From: Maribacter zhoushanensis
GTDB lineage: Bacteria; Bacteroidota; Bacteroidia; Flavobacteriales; Flavobacteriaceae
Direction of reading: 5' to 3'
Assembly (NCBI RefSeq): GCF_029350975.1
Contig: NZ_JARKMR010000001.1
Coordinates: 62,001 to 126,000 of the forward strand
Length of the DNA stretch: 64,000 bases
A program made the translations under genes and the position numbers. Positions 25,370-35,062 of this stretch are shown piece by piece. A model generated the notes under the pieces. The model had not been told where the DNA came from and made no database searches. It saw only the letters and a list, made by a program, of their open reading frames with translations. Each line of letters opens with the position of its first letter. Within the stretch, counting starts at the first letter, position 1.

Positions 25370-26575
25370 TTGAATTTTCCTCTTTATATCGCTAAAAGGT
25401 ATGTACGTTCTAAAAGTACCCAGAACGCTGTCAACATCATTAATTTTATCACCTTTTTAGTTATAGTTATTGGCTCTGCTGCACTGTTTATTGTGCTTTC
25501 GGCTTTCGCCGGATTAAAAACTTTTAGCCTTTCCTTTACAGAATCTTTTGATCCAGATTTAAAAGCTTCTCCCGTAACCGGAAAGATTTTCACCCTTACT
25601 CCAGAACAAGAACAACGTTTGCAGTCTGTTGACGGACTAGCATTTTTCTCCAAAGAAATAGAAGAAAAAGTATCTCTTGAGCACCGCGGCAAAAACCATA
25701 TTGCCTATATAAAGGGAGTTGATAGTAATTACACTAAAGTAACCGGAGTTGATAGTACTCTCTACATTGGCGATTGGACCATTAACGATACTCAAGTTGT
25801 TTCTGGTTTGGGTATTGCCAACATATTAGGAGTAACCATCAACCAGTTTCGTAGTCCTATGCAGATTTATGCTTTTAAGCCTGGCAAGGGTTCTATATCA
25901 CAGCAAAGCATTTCATCGCTTTATAATCAATTACCAATGGTTATTGGTGGCGTATATGCTGTAGAGGCTGATTTGGATAATAAATATGTATTTGCCGATT
26001 TACGGTTGACACAGGCTTTGTTAGAAAAAGATTCACTCTCTATTTCCGGCATTAATTTTAAGATGGATGAAGGTGTTGAGCCTAGCGCCGTACGTGATGA
26101 AATTCAATCTATTCTGGGAGACAACGTACAATTGAAAAATAGACAGCAATTGAACAGTACGCTCTACAAAATGTTAAACACGGAAAATGTAGCAACGTAT
26201 CTTATTTTCACCTTAGTACTTATCATTGCCCTGTTCAATGTGGTAGGTGCTATCATCATGATGATTTTAGATAAGCAACAAAATTCTAAAACGCTATATA
26301 GTCTTGGTACAACGATAAAAGAATTACGTAGAATATATTTTGTGCAAGGAATTCTGGTTACCGGTTTTGGCGGATTTATAGGTGTACTAATAGGTGTATT
26401 GATTGTTTGGTCACAACTTGCTTTTAGCTGGCTGAAGATTACGCCGTCGTTGGCTTATCCTGTGAAATTTGAATTCATCAACATTGCAATTGTATTGGCA
26501 ACTATTATTGTACTAGGTATTATTGCTTCTAAGATTGCAAGTAGCCGTATCAATAAAAAACTGGTAGATCTTTAA
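25370..26575 (+). CDS. FtsX/LolC-LolE-type ABC transporter permease
   Basis: A 401-residue inner-membrane protein with the MacB/LolE layout: one transmembrane helix near the N-terminus (IINFITFLVIVIGSAALFIV), a large periplasmic domain (about 45-265), then three helices (about 270-295, 320-345, 370-392). The start is a TTG at 25370, four bases after rbfA; the conserved N-terminus MNFPLYIAKRYVRSK supports it. It probably belongs to a lipoprotein-releasing transporter, with the ATPase encoded elsewhere. It converges on dusB with a four-base overlap. Confidence 0.85.
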   Translation: MNFPLYIAKRYVRSKSTQNAVNIINFITFLVIVIGSAALFIVLSAFAGLKTFSLSFTESFDPDLKASPVTGKIFTLTPEQEQRLQSVDGLAFFSKEIEEKVSLEHRGKNHIAYIKGVDSNYTKVTGVDSTLYIGDWTINDTQVVSGLGIANILGVTINQFRSPMQIYAFKPGKGSISQQSISSLYNQLPMVIGGVYAVEADLDNKYVFADLRLTQALLEKDSLSISGINFKMDEGVEPSAVRDEIQSILGDNVQLKNRQQLNSTLYKMLNTENVATYLIFTLVLIIALFNVVGAIIMMILDKQQNSKTLYSLGTTIKELRRIYFVQGILVTGFGGFIGVLIGVLIVWSQLAFSWLKITPSLAYPVKFEFINIAIVLATIIVLGIIASKIASSRINKKLVDL

Positions 26576-27774: not shown

Positions 27775-28557
27775 ATGAGCATGTCCCTACTTATTGTTTC
27801 GCTACCATTTGAGCCAGTTGTGTTCGGTGTAAAACTAAACATGCATCTTATTCTAGAATATTTGGCATTCTTTATTGGCTTTAGATATTATGTTTTTCTA
27901 CGAAAAAAAAGCACCGATGTCATTTCATCAAACAACAGACTCTCCATAATTATAGGTGCGGTTTTTGGAGCTTTATTTCTGTCTAGGTTAGTAGCATTTT
28001 TTGAGAACCCAGTAGCGCATATTCAAGAAGGTTGGCTGTATAACTTGAACAATAAAACCATAATGGGCGGTCTCTTTGGTGGTTTACTGGGCGTTGAATT
28101 GGTTAAGAAGATTATTGGCGAGAAGCACTCTTCTGGAGATCTGTTTACATTACCTATTATCTTAGGTATAATCATTGGCAGGGTTGGTTGTTTTTTAGCA
28201 GGTATTAAAGAATTTACCTTTGGAAAAGAAACTACCTTTTTTACAGGAATAGATTTAGGTGATGGTCTTCTTAGACACCCTATTGCATTATATGAAGTGG
28301 TATTTTTAATTTTTCTATTTGTTATTATCCAAAGACTTCAAAAATCAACGATTAAGCATAGAAACGGAGACCTTTTTAAGCTATTTATGGTCAGTTATTT
28401 CTCCCTACGTTTCTGTATCGAATTTCTAAAACCAAACAGTTTTTATACCCTTGGTCTAAGCAGCATTCAAATATTATGTTTAATTTGTTTGGTTTACTAC
28501 TATAAATTTATCCTACGGGGAATTACTTATGTCCGAAAAAAACTATACGTATTATGA
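27775..28557 (+). CDS. Lgt-family (prolipoprotein diacylglyceryl transferase-like) membrane paralogue
   Basis: A 260-residue protein with about seven membrane helices and the Lgt framework: TIMGGLFGGLLG (about 95-106), GRVGCFLAG with Arg136, LRHPIALYE (about 166-174) and SLRFCIEFLKP with Arg212. In E. coli Lgt the first motif carries an essential histidine (HGG) and the second reads GRIGNFING. Here the histidine is Met97 and the asparagine is Cys139, so a changed acceptor or reaction is likely, or lost activity. The last 29 bases overlap the next gene, a radical SAM enzyme, so the two are coupled. I do not call it lgt; the true lipoprotein enzyme is presumably elsewhere. Confidence 0.75.
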   Translation: MSMSLLIVSLPFEPVVFGVKLNMHLILEYLAFFIGFRYYVFLRKKSTDVISSNNRLSIIIGAVFGALFLSRLVAFFENPVAHIQEGWLYNLNNKTIMGGLFGGLLGVELVKKIIGEKHSSGDLFTLPIILGIIIGRVGCFLAGIKEFTFGKETTFFTGIDLGDGLLRHPIALYEVVFLIFLFVIIQRLQKSTIKHRNGDLFKLFMVSYFSLRFCIEFLKPNSFYTLGLSSIQILCLICLVYYYKFILRGITYVRKKLYVL

Positions 28558-29923
28558 TTTCACATTAAGCCTTTGCCCAGAATGTTTACGACGGGTAGAT
28601 GCTAAAATCGTTTTTGAAAACGAAAAAGTATACATGCTAAAAAATTGCAAAGAGCATGGTAGATCTAAAGTACTTATAGCTGATGATATTGAATATTATA
28701 AGAACATAAGAAACTATAATAAGGCTTCTGAATACCCTAAAACATTTAACACACAAACACATTACGGTTGCCCATATGACTGTGGTCTGTGCCCTGATCA
28801 CGAGCAACATTCTTGCCTAACGGTTATTGAACTTACAGACCGCTGTAACCTTACCTGCCCAACTTGTTATGCAGGGTCTTCACCAACTTATGGCAGACAT
28901 AGAACTCTTGAAGAAATCAAGAAAATGCTCGACGTTATTGTAAAAAATGAAGGCGAGCCAGATGTGGTTCAGCTTAGTGGTGGTGAGCCTACCATACATC
29001 CTAACTTTTTTGAAATATTAGACTATGCAAAATCGCTCCCTATTCGGCATTTAATGTTAAATACTAATGGAATTAAAATTGCGAAAGATTTTGAATTTGC
29101 AAAGCGATTAGCCACCTATGCACCAGATTTTGAAGTGTATTTACAGTTTGATTCTTTAGACAACCAAGTTCTGCAAACTTTACGTGGTGCAGATTTGGCA
29201 GATATTCGTTTACAGGCATTGGAGCACCTGAACAAGTTGAACCTATCTACGACACTAGTTGTTGTTCTACAAAAAGGATTGAACGACCATGAAATGGGAG
29301 ACACCATAGATTTTGCACTAAAGCAAAAATGTGTACGCGGAGTTACTTTTCAACCCACCCAAATAGCAGGTAGATTAGAAAACTTTGAAGTGGATGAAAA
29401 TCGAATTACCTTGACAGAAGTTCGCCGTAATATATTAGAACAATCGCCCATTTTTGAATCGGACGATCTAATACCCGTACCCTGTAATCCTGATGCATTG
29501 GTGATGGCATATGCTCTAAAATTAGGCGATGAGGTAAACCCGCTAACCAGGTTCATAAACCCAGATGATTTACTGAACGAAGGAAAAAACACCATTATCT
29601 ACGAGCAAGACGAGCAATTACACGGTAAAATGATCGAACTTTTCAGTACTGGAAACTCGGTTGAAAAAGCATCGGAAAACTTGAAGAGTATTATGTGCTG
29701 CCTACCTGAAATTGATGCTCCAGAACTTGGCTATGACAATCTATTTCGCATCATTATCATGCAGTTTATAGATGCCCATAATTTTGATGTCCGCGCCATT
29801 AAGAAATCTTGTGTACACATTGTAAACAAAGATTATAAAATTATCCCCTTTGAAACTATGAACTTGTTTTATAGGGATGATAAGATTGAACGACTAAAGG
29901 AACTACAAAACGAAACGATATGA
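28529..29923 (+). CDS. Radical SAM protein resembling the MJ0619/Tes family
   Basis: A 464-residue cytoplasmic enzyme. The radical SAM cluster motif CNLTCPTC is at Cys106, Cys110 and Cys113, with SGGEPTIHPNF following. Extra cysteines come before it: CPEC (16, 19) and Cys40 in NCKEHG, then CPYDCGLC (81, 85, 88) and Cys96. The C-terminus has IMCCLPE and FDVRAIKKSCVHIV with Cys428. This layout matches my memory of the archaeal MJ0619/tetraether synthase family, which joins lipid chains, except that a usual CC pair reads SC and a later cysteine is absent. The overlap with an Lgt paralogue also points to a membrane-lipid substrate. Reaction unknown. Confidence 0.8.
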   Translation: MSEKNYTYYDFTLSLCPECLRRVDAKIVFENEKVYMLKNCKEHGRSKVLIADDIEYYKNIRNYNKASEYPKTFNTQTHYGCPYDCGLCPDHEQHSCLTVIELTDRCNLTCPTCYAGSSPTYGRHRTLEEIKKMLDVIVKNEGEPDVVQLSGGEPTIHPNFFEILDYAKSLPIRHLMLNTNGIKIAKDFEFAKRLATYAPDFEVYLQFDSLDNQVLQTLRGADLADIRLQALEHLNKLNLSTTLVVVLQKGLNDHEMGDTIDFALKQKCVRGVTFQPTQIAGRLENFEVDENRITLTEVRRNILEQSPIFESDDLIPVPCNPDALVMAYALKLGDEVNPLTRFINPDDLLNEGKNTIIYEQDEQLHGKMIELFSTGNSVEKASENLKSIMCCLPEIDAPELGYDNLFRIIIMQFIDAHNFDVRAIKKSCVHIVNKDYKIIPFETMNLFYRDDKIERLKELQNETI

Positions 29924-30114
29924 TTTTAGAAGGCAATTTAGATGGTCTAGCAACCTTTTTGTTTCTTATAATGTTTGGTCCGGCAATAGTGTTCATTCTT
30001 ATAGGTGCCGTTTTATTTTATCATAAGAAGAAAAAAGCGGGTAAAGTATTTATGATTTTAGCAGGAGTGTATTGCCTTATCAGTGTTGGTATATGTGGAG
30101 CAATGATGGCCTAA
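29920..30114 (+). CDS. Small two-helix membrane protein
   Basis: A 64-residue ORF overlapping the radical SAM stop by four bases (ATGA), so it is the third gene of that operon. Two hydrophobic segments (TFLFLIMFGPAIVFILIGAVLFY and VFMILAGVYCLISVGICGAMM) are joined by a basic loop (HKKKKAGK). No family recognised. Translational coupling suggests it works with the lipid-linked pair before it, perhaps as an anchor or partner. It converges on the first outer-membrane receptor with six bases between stops. Confidence 0.7.
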   Translation: MILEGNLDGLATFLFLIMFGPAIVFILIGAVLFYHKKKKAGKVFMILAGVYCLISVGICGAMMA

Positions 30115-30120
30115 CATGTT

Positions 30121-32520
30121 TTATAATCGCTTGCTCTCATCAGTATCCTTATTTTTAGAATTATCGCGAATTTTCGTATTCCCAAACTTATATCTAAAGC
30201 CCACTACCAATAACCTATTCTCTATCCGTGTAGCCGTTGTATTTTTCTGATCCAAATAATTTCTTCTTGAGAAATTATTGCCATTATTAAATATGTCTTG
30301 AACACCTAAAGAAATGCTTATGTCCTTATCCATAAAGGTTTTCCTAAATGACACCCCAACCTTACTAAAGGAATCAAACTTTGCATTACCACTAATAAAT
30401 GGAGAATAATACAGATACGTTACATCAGCAAAAAGTGATTCATCTTTTAATAAGGTAAAGTAATTATTTGCCCTTATTGAGGTTAACCAGACCGAATTTT
30501 CAACAAGGCTATTGGTCTCCACATCTGTAAAGCTATCCTTGTCATAGTACTGCCTTAATAGAAAATAAAGATACCAATATGAAGTAAACTGTTTTGAAAC
30601 ACTAACATCATAACCATAATTATAATTTGTTTCCAAATTAATATACCTTGTTACAAGTGTATTGTTCTCATTGTCTTGGGTTATCTGTTGTGCGACATCA
30701 CTAGATCTTCTATTAACAAATAATACCAATTTGTAATCGCGATCAAACACATAATCGAACTGAACATAATGATTATAAGATGGTTTCAAATTGGGGTTTC
30801 CTTCAAAAAGGGAATTCGCAGATATGTAAAATTGAAAAGGATTAATACTACTATATCTTGGTCTTCTTATTCTTCTGTAATACTTTAAATAAAAAGCATT
30901 TTTCTCTTTCTTATATGATAACGACATATTAGGAAACAAGTTCAAATAGGAAGTTTCATTTAATGAAGAAAGAGCGTCTAAGCTCGCTTTTGTGTTGGTA
31001 TACTCGGCACGTAGTCCTAAGTTTAATTTCCACTTTTCCCAATTGTTGTTTAAACTAACATATCCAGCATATATTTCTTCATCATAATTAAATATACCCG
31101 AACCTGTTGGAGATATGCCTTCTGCCATTTCATCAAAACCAGACTGCGATATATTTGATTCTGAATTAATAATGGCAACCTTTACCCCGGTTTCCATAGT
31201 AGACTGCTTGGAAAATGGTAGAGTGAGGTCTGTTTGCGCACTAAAAAGATTAATAATTTGATCGGTATTAACCACCAAGGTATTTTCAGAAGTGTTATCT
31301 GTAATTCCCTGTACAATAGTATTGTTTAGTTCTTGATCTTGCTTAGAGTCGTAATATGTAAAATGTAGGTTTGAACTTATTTCTGCACCATCATCATTTA
31401 ATTTATGAATCCAATCTAAATAGTTAGATGAATTATATGTATCATCATCTATAACGTTTAAACCGTCTAGCTGGGCTAATAAATTTCCTTCCGTATTCTC
31501 TATATCGGTTATTGAAAAGTAATTTGTAATTCCGTCTGGCGATAAACTAGAGGTAGAGGTAAGGCTAATGGTATTCTTTTCATCTATTTGAACATCTAAG
31601 AATAGATTTAGGTTGTGACTATTTTTATTGCCAATTAATTTCTGTTCCGCTGACCAAATCTCGCTTTCTTCACCATTTTCAAAATATGTGGTAATATCAG
31701 AATATCTAGTCCAGTTTCTATTATGGCTAAAGCTATAATTTGTAGTAAAATCTACCTTTTTACCTTTAAAAAAATGGTCTGTACCAAAAGTATGTTTTGG
31801 TAATACCCCTTGTGTATATTTATTAAATATTGCTCCGTTATATCCAGCAATGAGGTTTTTTTTCATTTTAATATCTATAAGCAAACCACCCTCTGCACTG
31901 TATTTCGCAGGGGGACTAGTAATGACCTCAATAGATTCTACATTACTGGCAGAGCTTCCGGTAAGAAGATTAATAATATCATCTTCTGGCAAGTTTACCC
32001 GCTTTCCATTAATCATAATAGTTACATTAGGGCTACCATTGATATATAAACGGTTGTTCATTACCATAACTCCTGGGGTACGTTTTAAAACATCCCAAAT
32101 ATCACCATCTGAAAGTGCTGTATTTTCAATATTGAATATATGTCTATCGGCAAGCTGTTCTATAACTGGTTTTTTTTGAGTTACAACCACCTCATCTAAT
32201 TCTTGTGAGCTTTGTAATATAAGTGGTTCTATCTCCATGCTATCAGCTATGGAAAGCAATTCACTTTCTACAGTATTTGCTATATAACTAGCGACTACAC
32301 GGTAGTTGCCAGTGGTGACGGACTTAATTTCATAAGCTCCTTGATCATTTGTGACCGTTCCTTTAATAAACTCACCATCCTCACTTAATAAAATGATATT
32401 GGCAAGAACAACAGGTGCTTGGTTATCGTCCACTACAAAACCACTAATAATAAATTCTTGAGAAAACGCTAAGGAAAACGTAAGACAAAAAAGAAGCGTT
32501 AATAATAATTTTCTAAGCAT
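30121..32520 (-). CDS. TonB-linked outer-membrane beta-barrel protein, paralogue 1
   Basis: A 799-residue outer-membrane receptor-like protein. It has a signal peptide (ends LAFSQ, about 21), a CarboxypepD_reg-like Ig domain (about 23-110), a plug-like segment with VLKRTPGVMVMNNRLYINGS and IEVITSPPAKYSAEGG, and a large barrel of the OMP_b-brl_3 type with RRPRYSSINPFQFYI and FEGNPNLKPSYNHY. The plug lacks a visible TonB box, so TonB dependence is inferred. The gene is followed upstream on the same strand by a close paralogue (32631-35033); the pair probably arose by duplication. Substrate unknown. Confidence 0.85.
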   Translation of the reverse strand: MLRKLLLTLLFCLTFSLAFSQEFIISGFVVDDNQAPVVLANIILLSEDGEFIKGTVTNDQGAYEIKSVTTGNYRVVASYIANTVESELLSIADSMEIEPLILQSSQELDEVVVTQKKPVIEQLADRHIFNIENTALSDGDIWDVLKRTPGVMVMNNRLYINGSPNVTIMINGKRVNLPEDDIINLLTGSSASNVESIEVITSPPAKYSAEGGLLIDIKMKKNLIAGYNGAIFNKYTQGVLPKHTFGTDHFFKGKKVDFTTNYSFSHNRNWTRYSDITTYFENGEESEIWSAEQKLIGNKNSHNLNLFLDVQIDEKNTISLTSTSSLSPDGITNYFSITDIENTEGNLLAQLDGLNVIDDDTYNSSNYLDWIHKLNDDGAEISSNLHFTYYDSKQDQELNNTIVQGITDNTSENTLVVNTDQIINLFSAQTDLTLPFSKQSTMETGVKVAIINSESNISQSGFDEMAEGISPTGSGIFNYDEEIYAGYVSLNNNWEKWKLNLGLRAEYTNTKASLDALSSLNETSYLNLFPNMSLSYKKEKNAFYLKYYRRIRRPRYSSINPFQFYISANSLFEGNPNLKPSYNHYVQFDYVFDRDYKLVLFVNRRSSDVAQQITQDNENNTLVTRYINLETNYNYGYDVSVSKQFTSYWYLYFLLRQYYDKDSFTDVETNSLVENSVWLTSIRANNYFTLLKDESLFADVTYLYYSPFISGNAKFDSFSKVGVSFRKTFMDKDISISLGVQDIFNNGNNFSRRNYLDQKNTTATRIENRLLVVGFRYKFGNTKIRDNSKNKDTDESKRL

Positions 32521-32630
32521 TTAGTGTTCGTATTCTAACTAAATGTAGGAAAGTAATATTGAATTATCTTACAATTTATTTATGTTTTTCTTAACTAAAA
32601 AATAAAAGGCTGATTATTAACCCGTTATAG

Positions 32631-35033
32631 TTAATCGAGACGTTCACGTTCTATTTTATCTATATCACGTTGGTTGTCTTCTAAGCGAAAATTACCAAAG
32701 TTGTACGTGAAGCCAAATTTTACATATTGGGTTTCAGGAACCGTCAGATACCCATTGTCTTGATTTAAATATTTAGAAGATACATACCCATTGTATTTAC
32801 CTAATAAGTCATTAGCACTTACACTTAAAACTGCTCTATTATCTAGAAATGATTTTCTCAGCCCTACGGTTAAATTTGTAGTCTCTTCTTGAATAAATGA
32901 TCCTTGTAACCAGCCAGATAAATAAACTAAACCTAATTCTCCTTTAAATGTTCCATCTTTAGAAAGGGTCAAATAATTGGTTAGGTCAACATAAGCTCCA
33001 TTAAAATCATTTTTATAAGAATATTCATCGCTCTGTAATGCTATAAAAGATTCTTCTTCATGAAAAAGAGAAATATAGCTGTACAAATACCAATTGTTAG
33101 TGATTGATTTACCATAAGAAAAATCAAAGCCGTAAGAGGTGCTTTCTAGAACATTCTGTGTAATATCCCTTAAAACAAAATTATCATTGTCTTGAAAAGT
33201 AAGTGTAGAAATATACATGCCATTATCTCGATAATAGAAATCAAAATAATACTCTTGATTTAAAGTATAGTTCAAATTAAAATTATGACTAAAACTAGGT
33301 CTTAAGTTAGGATTGCCTTCTTCGAAAGTACGTTCATTAATATATGTTCTAAACGGATTTAAATCTTCATATCTAGGACGTTCTAACTTTCTAGAATAAT
33401 CAAAAGCAAGACTATGGTGGTCATTAATAGTATGAAGTATGTACAACGAGGGAAATAGTTCAAAATAGCTAAGATTATTAATAGTCGAAATATTTACTGA
33501 AAGCCCTGAACTCTCTGTGTGCTCTGCTCGTAAACCTGTTTTAATACTCCAGTTTTCCCAATCTTTAGAAAAATTAAAATAACCGGCGTATACACTTTCA
33601 TCATACGTATAGTCATCAGATAAATTTGGGACAAACTCTGATCCATTATTTTGTAAAAAATACTCTAGCTTACTTTCAGAATCAATAAAAGAGCCTTTTA
33701 CCCCTGTTTCAAAAAATACACTGCCTAAATAATCAGTGTAATCTATTTGAGCTGTTTTTATTTCTATCTGCTGATCGGCAATAGTTGAGAAATTAAAATC
33801 CCTCAAAAATGACCCGTTAGGTTGAAAATAATCTGAGTTTACATCTTGATTTCGGTCTAAATCAAAATTTGTATAGTGCGCATTTACAGATAAGTTTGCC
33901 TGATCTTTAAATTGATGTTTGAAAGTAAGGTCGCCAGAAATATTGTTCTTTTTTTCACTAAAAAAACTACCGGTCGTAAATAAAGAATCTAAAGCCCCTA
34001 CACTATTTTTAATTGTAGTTTCTTGGAAAAAATCAGCATCCTTTTTTGGTTGAAACTGTGCGTTACTAGTTAAACTTAGTGAGTTCTTGTCATTGAATTC
34101 ATAATCTACCGACACCCCTGCGCTATGGGTATTAGTGCGTATAACTTGATCAAAATCTGTATCCCAAATAGAAACAATACCACTATCACCCATATAGTTG
34201 GTGTTATTTAGGGTATTCTTAAATTCTTTTTTGGGCGTGAAATTATAGCTTGCGTTTACATTTAACTTTTTGGTCTTGTAAAAATGAGATGTTCCAAAAT
34301 TGTACTTAGGAAATACCCCTTGTGTATACCCAGCATTTACATTCCCCTTATACCCTACAGATAGATTTTTACTGGTAACGATATTTAAAATAGAACCCCC
34401 TTCGGCATCATAACTCGCTGGTGGATTATGAATAACCTCAACAGATTTTATATTTTCACCTTGGTAATTTTCTAGAAGGCTTCTTACCTCTTCAGAAGAA
34501 AGTTGAACTTTGCGGTTATTGATATAAACGGTTGTTGCCTGGTTTCTAACTTTCAGTTCATCATTCATCATAATTACGCCGGGCGTTTGACGAAGAATAT
34601 CCCACGAGCTATTCTGAGAAATAACCGTATTTTCTACATTAAAAACAATGCGATCAACCTCTCTTTTTACCACAGGTTTATTGCTAGTTACGGTGACCTC
34701 ATTCAATTGTTCCGCTTGCTGCTCAATTATTACAGCTCCAATTTTAGTATCCTTTAAAATCTCAATCGCTAAGTTTTCTGAGGTTTGACCTACATAAGAC
34801 GCTTGTAAAAAATAGAGCCCCTCTGCAACATTAGAGAACACAAATACACCGTTTTCATCGGCAGAACTTCCTTTGACCAATGCAGAGTCTGTAACGGTCA
34901 ATAGAAATACAGAAGCAAATGCTACGGGTTCTTGGTATTGGTCTTTAACCTCACCTTTTAATTCAAAGGTTTGACTATACCCAAAATTGGACATGCCTAT
35001 GCAAAAGAATAAAATAACTGTTAGTAGTTTCAA
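32631..35033 (-). CDS. TonB-linked outer-membrane beta-barrel protein, paralogue 2
   Basis: Same architecture as the gene downstream: signal peptide, CarboxypepD_reg-like domain, plug (ILRQTPGVIMMNDELKVRNQ, VIHNPPASYDAEGGS), and barrel with ERPRYEDLNPFRTYI and FEEGNPNLRPSFSHN. The frame is open from 35057, but that codon overlaps a -7 promoter box. A TTG at 35033 gives a textbook signal peptide (MKLLTVILFFCIGMSNFGYSQ), so a TTG start giving 800 residues is preferred. Barrel and plug differ from paralogue 1 throughout, so the duplication is old. Confidence 0.82.
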   Translation of the reverse strand: MKLLTVILFFCIGMSNFGYSQTFELKGEVKDQYQEPVAFASVFLLTVTDSALVKGSSADENGVFVFSNVAEGLYFLQASYVGQTSENLAIEILKDTKIGAVIIEQQAEQLNEVTVTSNKPVVKREVDRIVFNVENTVISQNSSWDILRQTPGVIMMNDELKVRNQATTVYINNRKVQLSSEEVRSLLENYQGENIKSVEVIHNPPASYDAEGGSILNIVTSKNLSVGYKGNVNAGYTQGVFPKYNFGTSHFYKTKKLNVNASYNFTPKKEFKNTLNNTNYMGDSGIVSIWDTDFDQVIRTNTHSAGVSVDYEFNDKNSLSLTSNAQFQPKKDADFFQETTIKNSVGALDSLFTTGSFFSEKKNNISGDLTFKHQFKDQANLSVNAHYTNFDLDRNQDVNSDYFQPNGSFLRDFNFSTIADQQIEIKTAQIDYTDYLGSVFFETGVKGSFIDSESKLEYFLQNNGSEFVPNLSDDYTYDESVYAGYFNFSKDWENWSIKTGLRAEHTESSGLSVNISTINNLSYFELFPSLYILHTINDHHSLAFDYSRKLERPRYEDLNPFRTYINERTFEEGNPNLRPSFSHNFNLNYTLNQEYYFDFYYRDNGMYISTLTFQDNDNFVLRDITQNVLESTSYGFDFSYGKSITNNWYLYSYISLFHEEESFIALQSDEYSYKNDFNGAYVDLTNYLTLSKDGTFKGELGLVYLSGWLQGSFIQEETTNLTVGLRKSFLDNRAVLSVSANDLLGKYNGYVSSKYLNQDNGYLTVPETQYVKFGFTYNFGNFRLEDNQRDIDKIERERLD

Positions 35034-35054
35034 TGGTGACTCGGGGTTTGTAAT

Positions 35055-35062
35055 CAAATCTA
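35055..35062 (-). promoter_or_regulatory. -7 promoter box of the second beta-barrel gene
   Basis: On the minus strand this reads TAGATTTG, a full TAnnTTTG match, 21 bases before the preferred TTG start at 35033. Just upstream, TTGTA (35075-35079) and TACAA (35086-35090) form a small inverted repeat that could be an operator. Confidence 0.5.

Follow-up and report, generated by a model that had tools for sequence, protein, structure and literature searches.

What does a relative of the lipoprotein diacylglyceryl transferase Lgt do when its gene overlaps that of a radical S-adenosylmethionine (SAM) enzyme? This question is raised by a three-gene operon in a 64,000-nucleotide stretch of the Maribacter zhoushanensis genome (contig NZ_JARKMR010000001.1, positions 62,001 to 126,000), which is called the window below. 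The genome that contains it (G000) has 4.26 Mb, and its closest named relatives in the searched collection are Maribacter. The operon encodes an Lgt-like protein (P0001), a radical SAM enzyme (P0002) and a small membrane protein (P0003). The analysis showed that the three genes are a conserved system, and its product is probably a lipid-modified membrane protein or a lipid. The three open reading frames (ORFs) are on the plus strand and overlap by 29 and 4 bases, as the original prediction, made from the sequence alone, had described. Purifying selection acts on all three genes: in comparison with nine Maribacter relatives, the overall ratio of nonsynonymous to synonymous differences (pN/pS) was 0.02–0.22, with 0.11–0.19 for the Lgt-like gene, 0.02–0.07 for the radical SAM gene and 0.07–0.22 for the small gene.

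Co-inheritance and distribution of the system

The two enzymes were searched in 395 genomes of the phylum, with thresholds of E ≤ 1e-30 and E ≤ 1e-100 for the radical SAM query and E ≤ 1e-20 for the Lgt-like query. The radical SAM query matched 34 genomes, 31 of them at E ≤ 1e-100, and the Lgt-like query matched 32. Both enzymes were present in 31/395 genomes, the Lgt-like protein alone in one, and the radical SAM enzyme (E ≤ 1e-100) alone in none (Fisher p = 3e-45, relatedness between genomes ignored). The co-occurrence that the original prediction had proposed to survey is borne out by these counts, and the idea of a single-genome curiosity was rejected because both enzymes co-occur so widely. 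Three radical SAM matches were weak. The enzyme of G212 is a Tes by cut-off and that of G444 falls just short of it (441.9 of 450 bits), and neither genome has an Lgt-like match. The third, in G242, belongs to a divergent trio.

In a family-level search, radical SAM matches were found in 21 of 149 genomes. The Lgt-like gene was in the fetched flank in 20 of these, one copy being truncated where the fetched sequence stopped. Genome G072 (L025, G072:C7:758715-758978) holds an 88-residue radical SAM piece with a stop, which is an apparent remnant. When the best 80 of 166 relatives in named genomes were inspected, the Lgt-like gene was present in 80/80 stretches. Among ORFs of at least 90 amino acids in 35 chosen loci, only the two enzymes were near-universal (34 and 33 of 35), and the next most common neighbour protein occurred in 20.

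The radical SAM protein was matched by 10 of 72,556 plasmid records. The trio was found on plasmid records of Persicobacter, two Mycobacterium species (M. branderi and M. avium) and Nonomuraea; the mycobacterial and Nonomuraea records show that a second phylum holds it. On the M. vanbaalenii record and two haloarchaeal plasmids, a methyltransferase gene adjoins the radical SAM gene in place of the trio. The remaining matches were three more haloarchaeal records (H4, H5 and H7), and their neighbourhoods were left out of the trio count. The Lgt-like protein of locus L163, searched against the plasmid records, gave no match.

The Lgt-like protein

P0001 matched the Pfam family PF01790 LGT with 77 bits (cut-off 24.9) and scored far under the NCBIfam lgt equivalog cut-offs (40.3 vs 118.9, 28.0 vs 334 and 20 vs 636 bits). 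Its AlphaFold model had a predicted local distance difference test score (pLDDT) of 81.4. The only PDB match of this model at E ≤ 0.001 was E. coli Lgt (5azb; E = 2.1e-4, TM-score 0.54). P0001 is predicted to be an integral membrane protein and a putative diacylglyceryl transferase with an altered active site.

Alignment with E. coli Lgt, whose numbering is used here, showed that R143 and R239 are kept, and that H103 is replaced by Met, N146 by Cys and Y26 by His. The kept arginines, the Met for His and the Cys for Asn had been pointed out in the original prediction, and the alignment confirmed each of them; the change at Y26 had gone unremarked there. The Cys is present but not unusual, as 12 of 24 other Lgt-family sequences carry Cys at position 146. 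For the same reason Cys146 was rejected as evidence that an Lgt is inactive. In E. coli Lgt, mutation of any one of H103, R143 and R239 was reported to abolish activity, with H103 described as critical (PMC4728403). In 107 Lgt-like sequences, R143, R239, E202, Y235 and the glycines at positions 104, 105, 142, 145 and 154 were unchanged, position 146 was Cys without exception, and position 26 was His in 103. Position 103 was Met in 85 sequences, Val in 14, Leu in 5, Ala in 2 and Thr in 1; the 24 other Lgt-family sequences had His (12), Tyr (10) or Phe (2) there. Among the sequences compared, Met, Val, Leu, Ala or Thr at this position was found only in the radical-SAM-linked branch. A 2026 Lgt survey reported that H103 is not universal, that it can be replaced by the aromatic residues Y, W or F, and that N146C and Y26H are seen among distant Lgts (PMC13251419). 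Both His103 and these aromatic replacements are absent from the 107 Lgt-like sequences. The loss of His103 and the gain of His at position 26 may reflect a rebuilt catalytic site.

A 60-row Lgt tree placed 36 radical-SAM-linked sequences on one side of one branch with support of 100/99 (six duplicate linked rows were removed, and L205 from G180 was omitted with no match). A separate Lgt is encoded about 1 Mb away in the same genome (G000:C10:1137469-1138374, 184 bits). Twenty genomes were examined for further copies: the 18 with the Lgt-like protein each had at least one other Lgt-family gene, and G212 and G444 had one Lgt-family gene each. The Lgt-like proteins are thus a separate lineage beside another Lgt. 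The gene had been called a paralogue at the outset, and it is one: its branch lies outside the other Lgts, and it is not the only lgt of its genome.

The radical SAM enzyme

The best curated models for P0002 were TrsS (331.2 bits, cut-off 490) and then Tes (295.2 bits, cut-off 450). Both cut-offs were missed, so membership of either family by cut-off was rejected; the G212 enzyme, with 493.8 bits, was the positive control for the Tes model. The nearest solved structure was GDGT-MAS (MJ0619, 7tol), which the P0002 sequence alone matched at E = 5.6e-69. A profile of 26 relatives, two Tes-like rows included, matched 7tol over its whole length.

The radical SAM motif and the rubredoxin-like cysteines were invariant in 26/26 rows. 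The N-terminal cluster cysteines are kept in P0002 and were lost from the actinobacterial rows and from G242. The C-terminal cysteines are altered, with Tes RCC...PFC becoming KSC...PFE in P0002, and C319, C390, C391 and C428 were invariant in 49/49 flavobacterial-type rows. Met411 of P0002 aligns with Met439 of 7tol. Met439 was reported as a labile cluster ligand in GDGT-MAS, which binds lipid tails (PMC9433317). The multi-cysteine Tes-type layout with changed C-terminal cysteines, noticed in the original prediction, was recovered in this alignment.

In the radical SAM tree, a branch with support of 89/82, which is under the starred level, set apart the 21 rows from genomes bearing the Lgt-like gene; three rows of Tes or Tes-like enzymes formed their own branch (100/99). 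The tree was built without a curated TrsS; none of the sequences obtained reached the TrsS cut-off. The earlier Tes-like reading of P0002 holds in part: its nearest structure is 7tol, but a strict Tes is not supported, as P0002 misses the cut-off and branches separately. The three methyltransferase-linked rows (L222–L224) did not form a single group. They scored 335–353 of 490 bits on the TrsS model, and the label TrsS-like was dropped for them.

The AlphaFold model of P0002 was weak (pLDDT 62.4), and the C-terminal cysteines could not be placed in it. Its best match was again 7tol, and it also resembled SkfB and SuiB, both peptide maturases, in structure. Pfam reported no SPASM domain for P0002. 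An antiviral role was rejected, as the only PADLOC matches at E ≤ 1e-5 were two viperin models, whose matches spanned 118 and 142 residues within the radical SAM domain.

The small membrane protein

P0003 matched no Pfam or NCBIfam family at cut-off. Small proteins were collected by form, as same-strand ORFs of 45–170 amino acids with at least two hydrophobic segments around the enzymes of 101 loci; a Cys was not required. These loci include near relatives, and the counts are not independent. Of the 161 same-strand small ORFs, 146 had a Cys within the last 15 residues, although a few of these look like chance; the corresponding figures were 5 of 21 for antisense ORFs and 30 of 209 for ORFs in other parts of these loci. 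At least one small Cys-ending membrane ORF was present in 99/101 loci, as a P0003 homologue in 83 and as a different protein with a similar end in 16. The two loci without one were L180, at a contig end, and L169 (G180). Two P0003 homologues were found in 29 loci and three in 3.

Position 59, the most conserved column, was Cys in 120 of 124 aligned P0003 homologues, whose rows were not picked for Cys. The last segment was preceded by a net positive charge in 141/146 small proteins, and the Cys lay 16 residues past the start of this segment in 105/146. Because of this charge and spacing, Cys59 is predicted to be at the periplasmic end of the last transmembrane segment. The motif around it is mostly [LF]-G-[IVT]-C-G, with Gly at −2 in 130/146, and five actinobacterial small proteins have GxCTGxNP tails. 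The canonical lipobox, [LVI][ASTVI][GAS]C, occurred in 0/146 small ORFs and a relaxed pattern in 9/146. The small protein had at first been taken for an accessory; P0003 is more likely to be the acceptor.

Proposed mechanism

We tentatively favour, with somewhat less than even confidence, a dedicated three-component system that yields a lipid-modified small membrane protein. A membrane-lipid system, as the original prediction had suggested, is the best frame for the operon because the structure nearest to P0002 is the lipid-tail-joining GDGT-MAS and because the enzymes co-occur far beyond chance. At the first step, the Lgt paralogue would transfer to Cys59 the diacylglyceryl group of phosphatidylglycerol or of a similar phospholipid. 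Catalysis would use the rebuilt site, in which His103 is lost and His usually stands for Tyr26. On balance, we consider S-diacylglyceryl transfer to the small-protein Cys the most likely first step, since the Lgt fold is known for periplasmic transfer of diacylglycerol to a thiol and the top-conserved residue of the co-occurring small protein is a thiol predicted to lie there. Signal peptidase II would not cleave the product, because the small proteins have no canonical lipobox, and a membrane-embedded proteolipid would remain.

The radical SAM enzyme, presumed to be cytosolic, would carry out Tes-type tail chemistry and form a C–C or C–S bond at an unactivated chain carbon. It could act on the phospholipid ahead of the transfer step, or meet the proteolipid's chains at mid-membrane once the transfer is complete. 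Lipid-chain chemistry is favoured for this enzyme because lipid tails are the substrates of its best-known relatives, and its role is the uncertain part of the proposal. We also considered a stronger form, which seems improbable: the repurposed Lgt would lipidate a C-terminal transmembrane Cys, and the radical SAM enzyme would then add a C–C or C–S bond at the lipid tail, for example a tie to a lipid of the opposite leaflet that gives a membrane-spanning proteolipid. Such a system would be categorically new.

Several observations weigh against the proposed lipidation system. His103, critical in E. coli Lgt, is lost from all 107 Lgt-like sequences. The small proteins lack the canonical lipobox, four aligned small homologues have no Cys (though each has a Cys-bearing partner in its locus), and the topology of P0003 was predicted from charge only. 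The active site of Lgt faces the periplasm and the radical SAM enzyme should be cytosolic, so their coupling is not obvious. The structural model of the radical SAM enzyme is poor, its best curated model is TrsS rather than the lipid enzyme Tes, and the altered C-terminal cysteines may alter its chemistry. Genome G165 has an Lgt-like gene (L179 6513-7349, reverse-complement coordinates) without a radical SAM match; the protein has Gln at position 26 in place of His and a long branch, as if the gene were decaying. The enzyme genes of G180 and G414 are on different contigs, and in G180 neither of them has a recognisable small Cys protein next to it. The proposal as a whole draws on sequence and prediction.

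Alternative explanations

The similarity of P0002 to Tes would also fit the synthesis of modified phospholipids. Here the radical SAM enzyme would alter or join tails to make membrane-spanning lipids, the Lgt-like protein would move or exchange headgroups, and the small protein would only anchor the enzyme. Bacterial Tes homologues were counted by Zeng et al. and by a Black Sea survey as candidate enzymes for branched glycerol dialkyl glycerol tetraethers (brGDGTs) (PMC8941075, PMC11868695). We find this explanation doubtful, as it leaves the single top-conserved Cys of the small protein and the accompanying Lgt fold unexplained. Moreover, the G212 Tes and the G444 Tes-like enzyme belong to genomes whose single Lgt-family gene is not of the Lgt-like kind; one ORF beside the G444 enzyme met the loose small-ORF filter but had no Cys motif. 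The small proteins themselves suggest another route, maturation like that of ribosomally synthesised and post-translationally modified peptides. The radical SAM enzyme would modify the small protein, for example by a thioether or C–C crosslink at the C-terminal Cys, and the Lgt-like protein would lipidate or present it. The position of the small genes beside the radical SAM gene, their occurrence in two or three copies at some loci, and the likeness of P0002 to SkfB and SuiB are in line with this. It is nevertheless unlikely, given that no SPASM domain was reported and that the sole near-invariant Cys is predicted to be periplasmic, beyond the reach of a cytosolic enzyme after insertion.

The Lgt-like protein could also be an ordinary second lipoprotein Lgt with the radical SAM gene as an unrelated neighbour, since two lgt copies were reported in about 1,300 genomes (PMC13251419). 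This is very unlikely. The two enzymes are present or absent together in the 395 genomes, the same three parts recur in a second phylum, the Lgt-like proteins form a separate branch with their own active-site residues, and neighbours outside the trio are common to at most 20/35 loci.

Features, neighbouring genes and variant loci

Table 1. Features of the operon in window coordinates, and gene pairs of variant loci in the coordinates of each locus (L162–L164).
Feature	Position	Strand	Evidence
Lgt paralogue P0001, 260 aa (putative diacylglyceryl transferase)	27775..28557	+	PF01790 77 bits; AlphaFold2 pLDDT 81.4, 5azb match; own branch 100/99
His24, aligned to E. coli Lgt Tyr26	27844..27846	+	Alignment; His in 103/107 Lgt-like proteins
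Met97, aligned to E. coli Lgt His103 (HGGL to MGGL)	28063..28065	+	Alignment
Arg136 to Cys139 (RVGC), aligned to E. coli R143 to N146, signature motif	28180..28191	+	Alignment
Arg212, aligned to E. coli Lgt R239	28408..28410	+	Alignment
Radical SAM enzyme P0002, 464 aa, Tes/TrsS kin	28529..29923	+	Below both curated cut-offs
CxxxCxxC, radical SAM cluster (C106, C110, C113)	28844..28867	+	Invariant, 26/26 rows
Small two-segment membrane protein P0003, 64 aa, proposed acceptor	29920..30114	+	Small Cys-ending membrane ORF in 99/101 loci; P0003 homologue in 83
Cys59 codon, proposed lipidation site	30094..30096	+	Cys in 120/124 aligned small proteins
Methyltransferase/DUF4395 gene pairs	L162 8021-8497 and 8508-8951; L163 7561-8067 and 8073-8516; L164 4784-5377 and 5370-5858		

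Four further neighbours recurred in 20, 18, 18 and 18 of the 35 chosen loci. We take them to be DusB-like (20), RbfA-like (18), FtsX/Lol-like (18) and LepA-like (18). Near the operon, a permease gene at window positions 25370-26575, presumably of the FtsX/Lol type, is kept in 18/35 chosen loci together with the RbfA- and DusB-like genes. After the operon, two large minus-strand genes occupy positions 30121-35057, and their products presumably resemble TonB-dependent receptors or outer-membrane beta-barrel proteins.

In the divergent trios of G265, G511 and G299, two additional genes stand between the radical SAM and Lgt-like genes. These encode an ICMT/PEMT-family methyltransferase (3/3) and a Cys-rich DUF4395 protein (3/3). 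They fit lipid or lipidated-cysteine substrates and prove nothing. Nonomuraea (L225 7356-7787) and G242 (L183 7245-7724, oriented by the radical SAM gene) have in common an extra membrane protein (DPLRLCVY...), encoded 3′ of the radical SAM gene. It may be a fourth component in this version of the system. At L223 6001-8164, L224 5974-8177 and L222 5968-8336 (plasmids of two haloarchaea and of M. vanbaalenii), the radical SAM gene stands directly before a methyltransferase gene. These loci apparently represent a different system, with enzymes under the Tes and TrsS cut-offs.

Significance

Full-text searches of open-access papers gave no description of such a system of an Lgt-like protein, a radical SAM enzyme and a small protein, subscription papers and preprints being outside the search. 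If the proposed lipidation of the small protein is true, bacteria of at least two phyla possess an additional, dedicated pathway for protein lipidation that includes a radical enzyme. A role would also be assigned to one set of bacterial Tes-like genes, which surveys may otherwise count as candidates for membrane-spanning lipids, and this would affect the choice of organisms regarded as sources of geological lipid markers. The hypothesis stands open to test at one named residue, Cys59.

Comparison with known systems

P0002 shares with Tes/GDGT-MAS (MJ0619, 7tol) the radical SAM motif, the rubredoxin-like site, the N-terminal cluster cysteines and the Met411/Met439 pair. It differs in its score (295 of 450 bits), its separate branch, KSC...PFE for RCC...PFC, and the other conserved cysteines C319, C390 and C391. 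The TrsS radical SAM (seleno)proteins (NF045646) gave the top-scoring curated model, with 331 bits; the cut-off of 490 was missed, and a kinship with true TrsS is suggested by the model score. In the Skillet-1 Lipocone system, a dedicated non-Lgt membrane enzyme is predicted to lipidate a lipobox-like sequence in a non-canonical way, which resembles our proposal, whereas its acceptor is Ser rather than Cys and its enzyme comes from the Lipocone superfamily (PMC12419801). The term radical SAM is absent from the main text of that paper.

E. coli Lgt (5azb) has the fold of P0001, the PF01790 domain, R143, R239 and E202, and the glycines of the signature motif. The Lgt-like proteins depart from it by M, V, L, A or T in place of His103, by mostly His at Tyr26, by scores under the lgt cut-offs, by a second Lgt-family gene in the genome and by the link to a radical SAM enzyme. 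The second Lgt of M. smegmatis, MSMEG_5408, was reported to carry the same Y26H and N146C pair as P0001 (PMC13251419). These reported residues make its kinship to the Lgt-like branch a lead.

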